Source of the DNA: Bacteroidia bacterium
GTDB taxonomy: Bacteria; Bacteroidota; Bacteroidia; CAILMK01; JBBDIG01
Length of the DNA stretch: 50,049 nucleotides
Direction of reading: 5' to 3'
NCBI GenBank assembly: GCA_040880525.1
Contig: JBBDIG010000005.1
Coordinates: 1-50,049, forward strand
Below are positions 40,134 to 50,049 of the stretch, piece after piece. The notes below the pieces were generated by a model. The model had not been told where the DNA came from. It worked only from the letters and a program-made list of their open reading frames with translations, and made no database searches. Every line of letters begins with the position of its first letter. The stretch's first letter is position 1. The position numbers were made by a program, and so were the translations under genes.

Positions 40134-40174
40134 GTCTTAATAAATATTGGTCTTAAATTTTGAAAAAATAAAAG

Positions 40175-40545
40175 TGGAGCCGGAGGGATTCGAACCCTCG
40201 TCCGGTCAAAAAAAGTCATGCGCTTTCTTCATGCTTAGCAAATTATTGGTTCTCGGCAGCGCCTGGTCTATTGCTTACCGTAACGCTACCAAAGCCCTGA
40301 TTGAATTTTCGACCCTGAGGCAAGGCAACCTCAAAGCTTATCCTGTAATGTTTCGAAGTTCCGAGGAGCGCCTTACAAGCATAACGCTCCGGGAACTGCT
40401 TACTGTGTAACGCCTAGGTTACGCAGCGTAAGCGTAAGAATAATTGTTGCCGTTTAAAGCAAGTTGAGAATTTTGTTTCGGACAAACTCACAAAGTCCGG
40501 CATGCTTACGCAACACCTCTTATGCCGTCAAATCCGGTCGGCCCC
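40175..40545 (-). ncRNA. ssrA: Transfer-messenger RNA
   Basis: tmRNA rescues stalled ribosomes and tags the unfinished protein. On the minus strand the 5' end GGGGCC (40545-40540) pairs with the 3' acceptor GGCTCC (40181-40176). The T-arm reads GGGTTCGAATCCC. The length is about 371 nt. The tag frame (40451-40419) encodes G-N-N-Y-S-Y-A-Y-A-A then TAA; Gly as first coded residue and a YAA-type end are typical of Bacteroidota. The 3' CCA is not fully encoded (genome reads ACTT after the acceptor stem). A -10-like box is not clear; TACCCTTG lies about 50 nt upstream of the mature 5' end. Confidence 0.93.
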
Positions 40546-45090: not shown

Positions 45091-45167
45091 GGCCTCATAG
45101 CTCAATTGGATAGAGCGTCAGATTCCGGTTCTGAAGGTTGGGGGTTCGAGTCCCTTTGAGGTCACCA
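45091..45167 (+). tRNA. tRNA-Arg (anticodon CCG)
   Basis: A complete 77-nt tRNA with encoded CCA. The acceptor stem pairs GGCCTCA with TGAGGTC, the D-arm is AGCTC...AGAGC, the anticodon stem is CAGA/TCTG, and the loop TTCCGGT places CCG at positions 34-36, reading the Arg codon CGG. The T-arm is GGGGTTCGAGTCCC. It lies just 28 bp after the rnpB terminator, and accessory genes begin on its 3' side. Confidence 0.96.
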
Positions 45168-47834: not shown

Positions 47835-47999
47835 TTAAGAATTACATTCCTTTATCAAAGCTCTTAATCTTACTGGGTTGCCACCTGTAGGATAGCCTAA
47901 TGCTTGCGTTAATCTTCTTGCTCCGATGGCTGTTGCCCTACCTTGCCTTAAAGCAGTTAGAAGTCTTTGTCTATCTTGTTGACTAAAACTATTCGGCAT
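47835..47999 (-). CDS. Small basic protein overlapping the methyltransferase gene
   Basis: A 54-residue protein from ATG 47999, overlapping the end of the methyltransferase gene by 11 bp. The sequence is helical and basic: Q-Q-D-R-Q-R-L-L-T-A-L-R-Q-G-R-A-T-A, then R-R-L-T-Q-A-L-G-Y-P-T-G-G-N-P-V-R-L-R-A-L. It looks like a small winged-helix-like DNA-binding or specificity module. It could be the head of a truncated restriction endonuclease or a true small partner. Function unknown. Confidence 0.55.
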   Translation of the reverse strand: MPNSFSQQDRQRLLTALRQGRATAIGARRLTQALGYPTGGNPVRLRALIKECNS

Positions 48000-49287
48000 C
48001 TGATTGTTTTGAAAGATTAATGAACTTTTCTTTGTATTTGAATTCTTGTAATTGGTCAGGTTCAGCAAAACCTTCTTTAATAAGATGGGCATTCAAAAAG
48101 GTTTTGTTCTTCAAATACAGATAGCACAATAGATTATTTTCATCATCATACTTCTGATTATCGAACTTCATAAAAACCTTTTGCCCCTTCGTTTTATCGT
48201 AAAGAAATTGTTTTGCTGAACCATTCGAAATATCCTTCTCTTTAACGCCAATTAGTCTTACAACGAGGTCATTGTTTAGCTTTACAAGCTCAGGGCTAAT
48301 AATTTCTTTTACAGAATAATATTCTTCCCTTTTACTCCCATTCTTGTCGATTTTTGAGCCAAATTGCAACTTTTTAGGATCAACCTTTTTATCAAATTTT
48401 TGAAAATCCACAAAACGATAAGGCAAATTTTGAAACTCATTTTCGATATCTAAATCAATGGAATCGTTTAGGAATTCATAAGATGTATCCGAAATATTAT
48501 CGGCCTTGTTAATATTCAATTTGTCCTTTGCTATTTCAATGAATTCGGGATTTACTTCATAGCCAATAGAGTTCCGTTCCAAATTTCTTGCAGCCAATGA
48601 GGTTGTTCCACTTCCCATAAATGGATCTAAAACGGTTTCCCCTTTGAAAGCAAACATTTTTATAAGTCGTTTGGGTAGTTCTTCAGGGAATATAGCTATA
48701 TGACTGTCCTGTCTTGCTCCCCCAAAATTCCAATGACCCGCAAAATATTCTTTCCATTCCTCCGTGGTCATTTTTGATTGTTCTTTTATTTCCTTAGTTA
48801 CTTTAGCTGTCGGTTTTCCAAGTTTTTTAAAAATTAGAATAAACTCGTAATCAATTGAAAGAATACCATTTCTTGGTGTTGGAAAACTACCCATCAATGA
48901 AGCGCCTCCAGTCGTGTTTGTAGTAGTCTGTTTTTGCCAAATAATGGCTCCCATATAGTCAAATCCGATGCTTTCACAGAATTTGATTATTTCAGTCCTG
49001 ATGGGGATTACTTTATATCGACCATAGTAAACGGCCCTGGCAAATTGGTCTCCGATATTTACACACAACCTGCATCCATTATCAAGAACCCGATAACACT
49101 CTTTCCAAACAAGATTTAAGTTGTTGATATAGGTTTCATAGTCCTCATGATACCCTATTTGATTCTCTGTTCCGTAGTCCTTCAATTGCCAATATGGTGG
49201 TGAAGTAATTACTAAATTAACCGAGTTGTCTTCAATGAGATTCATCTGTCGGCTGTCACCATTTACTATTTTATGTATTGTATTCAA
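47989..49287 (-). CDS. DNA methyltransferase fused to an SNase-like domain
   Basis: A 432-residue fusion. Residues 1-260 are a beta-class DNA methyltransferase, with the catalytic motif T-S-P-P-Y-W (28-33) ahead of the AdoMet motif D-P-F-M-G-S-G-T-T (221-229); the order and S-P-P-Y fit N4-cytosine or N6-adenine enzymes. Residues about 338-425 match staphylococcal-nuclease-type domains: V-V-R-L-I-G-V, G-S-A-K-Q-F-L, G-Q-K-V-F-M-K-F-D, L-L-C-Y-L-Y-L, L-I-K-E-G-F-A. By that alignment the first catalytic Arg is kept (344) but the second Arg is Asn (385) and the Glu is Asp, so nuclease activity is doubtful. Start is TTG 49287, since the next ATG would cut the first strand. A 54-residue gene overlaps its end. 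Confidence 0.8.
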   Translation of the reverse strand: MNTIHKIVNGDSRQMNLIEDNSVNLVITSPPYWQLKDYGTENQIGYHEDYETYINNLNLVWKECYRVLDNGCRLCVNIGDQFARAVYYGRYKVIPIRTEIIKFCESIGFDYMGAIIWQKQTTTNTTGGASLMGSFPTPRNGILSIDYEFILIFKKLGKPTAKVTKEIKEQSKMTTEEWKEYFAGHWNFGGARQDSHIAIFPEELPKRLIKMFAFKGETVLDPFMGSGTTSLAARNLERNSIGYEVNPEFIEIAKDKLNINKADNISDTSYEFLNDSIDLDIENEFQNLPYRFVDFQKFDKKVDPKKLQFGSKIDKNGSKREEYYSVKEIISPELVKLNNDLVVRLIGVKEKDISNGSAKQFLYDKTKGQKVFMKFDNQKYDDENNLLCYLYLKNKTFLNAHLIKEGFAEPDQLQEFKYKEKFINLSKQSDAE

Positions 49288-49590: not shown

Positions 49591-50049
49591 CTAATCTTTA
49601 AATCCATATTTTTGTACTTTTTTTAAGTTTAGCCCGGCTATATATAAATTTCTACTGGTCATACCTTTTTTACCGTCAGCAAGGTCTGACATGAAACGAT
49701 ATTCATAGGGCTTAAGTCGTTTATTACGTTTATCCCATTGAACTACTTTCTTAACAAGGTCAATCGTAATTTCTTCTGCTTCCTGTTTTTTGTTTTCATC
49801 TTCATCAAAAAATTCTTCCATGTCAAAGAATAGTTCCGGGTTTTCATTCGCCACGACATTTAGAATTTCTTCTCCCTGCTTTCTTTCAATATCCGAAATG
49901 ACTCTGTTTGATCTAATACGATTTCCTAAAGTGTTTGCCATATCGATCTGGTAGTGCGAAACTTTTGAAGTTTCCCTGCCCCAGTTTTCTATCTTCTTCC
50001 AGGTTTTTGGATGAATTGATTTAATGCGTTCAAGGGAAGCGTCAATTTC
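49591..50049 (-). CDS. C-terminal part of a gene cut by the window edge
   Basis: An open minus-strand frame runs off the right edge; 152 residues are visible. An ATG at 49941 is internal, because the frame stays open upstream with protein-like sequence (L-E-R-I-K-S-I-H-P-K-T-W-K-K-I-E-N-W). It is helical, charged and acidic in the middle (F-D-M-E-E-F-F-D-E-D-E), and ends L-K-K-V-Q-K-Y-G-F-K-D. I do not recognise the family from this part. Next to a DNA methyltransferase it may be an abortive-infection or restriction partner, which is a guess from context. Confidence 0.65.
   Translation of the reverse strand, partial: EIDASLERIKSIHPKTWKKIENWGRETSKVSHYQIDMANTLGNRIRSNRVISDIERKQGEEILNVVANENPELFFDMEEFFDEDENKKQEAEEITIDLVKKVVQWDKRNKRLKPYEYRFMSDLADGKKGMTSRNLYIAGLNLKKVQKYGFKD

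Follow-up and report, generated by a model that had tools for sequence, protein, structure and literature searches.

What does a DNA methyltransferase do with a nuclease-fold tail, and what is the small open reading frame (ORF) that overlaps its end? These questions arise from a 50,049-nucleotide contig of a Bacteroidia bacterium, the whole of which was analyzed and which we call the window. A first-pass annotation had proposed that the two genes form a joint unit, possibly a new modification-based defense system. Our results lead to a different reading. The gene is very probably the modification methylase of a MjaI-type type II restriction-modification (R-M) system with the predicted target CTAG, which has lost its endonuclease and whose SNase tail would be noncatalytic. 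We therefore regard the locus as an ordinary R-M system in decay, in which the conserved, apparently dead SNase domain is the point of moderate interest.

Both ORFs were confirmed at their annotated positions (Table 1), with an overlap of 11 nt at 47989-47999. The gene upstream of the methylase was considered as a further member of the unit and ruled out, since it does not recur at other loci.

Table 1. Features of the window, numbered from its first letter.
Feature	Position	Strand	Details
Beta-class SPPY DNA methyltransferase with C-terminal SNase-like domain	47989..49287	-	432 aa; TTG start; coordinates include the stop codon
Methyltransferase domain, residues 1-267	48487..49287	-	motif IV TSPPYW 28-33; AdoMet motif LDPFMGSGTT 220-229
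SNase-fold domain, residues 321-432, degenerate active site	47992..48327	-	Pfam, structure model, alignment
54-aa ORF: 52 codons of winged-helix gene, then NS-stop	47835..47999	-	ATG start; comparison with relatives
tmRNA gene	40174..40545	-	tag GNNYSYAYAA
tRNA-Arg (ccg) gene	45091..45167	+	overlapping small ORF call spurious
Open-ended upstream ORF	49591..50049	-	152 aa or more, truncated at the edge of the contig; Peptidase_S74 (endosialidase chaperone) scores weakly, under the cut-off

The methylase and its nuclease-fold tail

The fusion holds at the level of protein families, with two Pfam domains in the one ORF: N6_N4_Mtase at residues 23-254 (1e-45) and SNase (PF00565) at residues 357-427 (6.5e-7; 30.2 bits against a cut-off of 21). 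In the former, the SPPY motif precedes the AdoMet motif, which is the order of a beta-class amino-methylase, and both motifs are invariant or nearly so across the family alignment. Wherever an alignment column reaches 95% conservation, the window methylase is free of substitutions; it does have one single-residue insertion. Together with a dN far below dS, the unsubstituted columns suggest that the enzyme is intact and probably active.

The tail has the SNase OB fold, as the first-pass annotation had supposed, according to both the Pfam match and the superposition of a structural model. Specifically, AlphaFold2 modeled residues 321-432 with a pLDDT of about 85-92, and the predicted tail (about residues 320-432) superposed on staphylococcal nuclease with a Z of 16.7 and an rmsd of 2.0 Å over 112 residues. 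The catalytic set of staphylococcal nuclease consists of Asp40, Glu43, Arg35, and Arg87. The equivalent of Arg87 is Asn385 in a profile alignment, and when the sequence was read by eye, Arg35 corresponded to Arg344, and so is kept, while Asp40 corresponded to Lys349 and Glu43 to Asp352. The tail thus does not carry the residues of an active SNase. Of these changes, the two at Arg87 and Glu43 had been recognized from the outset and are borne out by alignment, but the one at Asp40 had been missed.

The same degeneration is found across 83 family sequences. Lys occupies the Asp40 site in 79 of them, the Glu43 site (position 352) varies among K, P, E, and D, and the Arg87 site (position 385) is Asn in 55, His in 15, and Arg in 6; the Arg35 site is Arg in 63 and Lys in 19. 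Given the loss of the acidic catalytic residues, nuclease activity is unlikely family-wide, and the tail is most likely a noncatalytic accessory OB-fold module, in line with the original suspicion, although the six sequences that keep Arg at the Arg87 site mean that inactivity may not extend to every member. Other positions in the domain are invariant, e.g., G347, D376, Y389, N394, T396, N399, and H401, which shows that the domain is under selection for a purpose other than cutting.

Could the domain still be a nuclease that supplies restriction itself, for example by cutting unmethylated or damaged DNA? Its fold is complete in the model, the Arg35 equivalent is kept, and E333, which aligns with Asp21 of staphylococcal nuclease, is conserved in 71 of the 83 sequences. 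Yet the substitutions at the other three catalytic sites, along with the retention of a separate endonuclease in intact systems, make such activity very improbable.

Our best guess is that the noncatalytic tail probably helps the enzyme to bind or hold DNA, with regulation as the rival role. The SNase domain has a median pI of 9.1 across the family, and the window copy, at 5.9, is not basic, which weakens a DNA-holding role for this particular protein. Alternatively, the dead domain could belong to a large, so far undescribed subclass of CTAG methylases and serve them specifically for regulation or sensing. It might, for example, read DNA or RNA to control methylation or operon expression, and in some intact systems it would act together with a winged-helix middle protein. 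We consider this possibility unlikely.

The operon in relatives

The fusion is not peculiar to the window. A scan of genome contigs returned more than 570 relatives of the methylase, and the best 80, which were analyzed, are 68-88% identical to it along almost the whole protein. In all 80, the alignment takes in the C-terminal SNase domain, so that the fusion is present in each. A lack of conservation in other genomes, which the first-pass annotation had named as a ground for refutation, was therefore looked for and did not apply to the fusion. The 80 relatives come from Bacteroidota, Ignavibacteria, Neomarinimicrobiota, Calditrichia, Desulfobacterales, Nitrospira, and others. Of two viral contigs, one has the SNase domain and the other is without it. 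A search of the open literature for SNase-methylase fusions found nothing relevant.

The survey of neighboring genes revealed what the methylase belongs to. The downstream gene in relatives encodes a MjaI-type restriction endonuclease (PF09568; E values down to 3.7e-68), which is present at 73 of the 80 loci (59 intact, 14 decayed); at the remaining seven, it is absent in four and truncated by the end of the contig in three. This neighbor identifies the SNase-fused methylase as a modification enzyme of MjaI-type R-M systems. In a reverse survey, 395 genomes of the phylum were searched for PF09568; it turned up in 62, and we read 30 loci. An SNase-fused methylase adjoins the endonuclease gene at 21 of these loci, and a more distant methylase lacking the SNase domain is found at seven, from which it follows that the fused form is one subtype of the MjaI-type modification enzyme. 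At L122, L125, L127, L128, L129, L130, and L132, the endonuclease lies near a different methylase, 30-39% identical and without the SNase domain, in another gene arrangement. The surveys show that a nuclease fold, conserved but apparently dead, is part of a widespread subclass of MjaI-type methylases.

Loss of the restriction half has occurred more than once, and the 14 decayed loci lost it independently. At L017, L024, L037, L040, L069, and L073, different parts of the endonuclease are deleted and the SNase-fused methylase is intact; restriction was repeatedly lost at these loci and the methylase kept.

Tetranucleotide counts in the window's genome bear on the target of the system. CTAG occurs 8 times in the window against 49.5 expected (observed/expected, 0.16), making it the most depleted palindromic tetranucleotide, and its ratio of 0.20 in 288 kb of the same genome is again the lowest of the palindromic tetramers. 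Only two same-order genomes were compared; both lack the methylase family, and their ratios are 0.43-0.44. Many bacteria are poor in CTAG, and the depletion seen here agrees with past CTAG restriction without being proof of it. From the depletion and the partner family, both of them indirect indications, CTAG is the predicted target of the methylase and N4-methylcytosine (m4C) the predicted product.

The orphan methylase and its truncated neighbor

The PF09568 endonuclease was not found in the window's genome, a 60-contig draft that is 98.4% complete; the same search returned a match in all seven other genomes, five of them strong and two weak. We thus detected no cognate endonuclease in this draft assembly that would complete a type II R-M system. 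Because PF09568 went undetected, we call the methylase an orphan in this assembly, the status that the first-pass annotation had offered as its second option, with the caveat that a draft may hide an unassembled or very divergent endonuclease. Among 11 other genomes of the same order that were searched, the endonuclease occurs in only one, which suggests that the R-M system was probably gained by transfer and that the restriction half was lost afterwards.

It is conceivable that the methylase is instead a functional orphan kept for gene regulation or replication timing, comparable to Dam, CcrM, and the haloarchaeal CTAG orphans. The intact enzyme, with its conserved columns unchanged and its restriction half gone, would fit this role, and orphan CTAG methyltransferases are conserved in Halobacteria (PMC5867850). 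Yet the orphan state is absent from close relatives, and the sole same-order genome with a full-length relative of the methylase (G001) keeps the endonuclease. Since no close relative shares the orphan state, recent arrival and decay is favored over long retention, and we give regulatory retention a small chance.

The second ORF also bears on this history. The 54-aa ORF has no match in Pfam or NCBIfam, and it was recognized solely through comparison with relatives. L009, L065, and L071 each encode a protein of 120-122 aa whose gene overlaps the methylase in the same place and runs up to, or slightly into, the beginning of the endonuclease gene. Over its first 52 residues, the window ORF is 69% identical to the 120-aa L009 protein; two extra residues and a stop follow. 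The model of the full middle protein (mean pLDDT, 87.5) shows a winged helix and a long C-terminal helix, and a fold search with it returned weak winged-helix-type matches, none with an E below 0.1. The window ORF stops after helix 3 and is missing the wing and the C-terminal helix. We thus read what had been taken for a 54-residue partner as a relic, the N-terminal half of a winged-helix protein of about 120 aa, which in its full form may be a regulator. Related middle genes are found at 18 of the 80 loci, and in most relatives a middle protein is missing altogether. At L008, L013, L032, and L068, the place of the winged-helix protein between methylase and endonuclease is taken by a protein (217 aa in L013) that looks GIY-YIG-like by eye but has no Pfam match. 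The L013 copy was ruled out as a replacement endonuclease, as that locus also has an intact MjaI-type endonuclease.

These observations undercut the proposal of a new defense system, in which the methylase-SNase protein and the 54-aa protein would act together without an endonuclease. The same-strand 11-nt overlap is real and an SNase fold could sense nucleic acid, but the small ORF is incomplete, the unit in relatives includes the MjaI-type endonuclease, and a middle protein is usually dispensed with. We found no evidence for such a system and regard the proposal as scarcely credible. In relatives, the operon comprises the methylase, an optional winged-helix or GIY-like protein, and the MjaI-type endonuclease, in that order. 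In the window's genome, a deletion very probably took the 3' half of the winged-helix gene along with the endonuclease. What it left is a methylase, intact but orphaned, and a relic of 54 codons across its end, with the conserved tail probably helping to hold DNA. What appeared to be a new defense unit becomes a readable case of R-M decay, with the endonuclease and middle gene lost and the methylase kept.

Relation to known systems

The closest known counterparts are the CTAG methylases M.MthZI, M.BfaI, and M.MjaI, which are m4C enzymes of the beta class with reported lengths of about 303-364 aa (PMC5867850). The window methylase is likewise a beta-class SPPY enzyme, and the operon partner of its relatives is a PF09568 endonuclease, as in R-M systems of the M.MjaI, M.BfaI, and M.MthZI type. 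Those enzymes are too short to have this tail, whereas the window methylase, at 432 aa, ends in an SNase fold. The nearest solved methylase domain is that of the putative modification methylase TTHA0409 (PDB 2zie; Z of 25.6, 36% identity), and the likeness is confined to the methylase part of the window protein.

For the tail, staphylococcal nuclease (PF00565) has the fold in common, but in the window protein the key acidic residues and the second arginine are replaced and the domain is fused to a DNA methylase. The eTudor domain of Tudor-SN (PMC7641849) likewise keeps an SNase fold that has lost its catalytic residues, although it is eukaryotic, has a Tudor domain inserted, and is not joined to a methylase. 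Finally, HVO_0794 of Haloferax volcanii (PMC5867850) is also a CTAG-type methylase without a cognate endonuclease. That archaeal orphan is conserved across its class, whereas the window methylase is apparently a recent remnant that has a truncated neighbor and carries an SNase-like tail.
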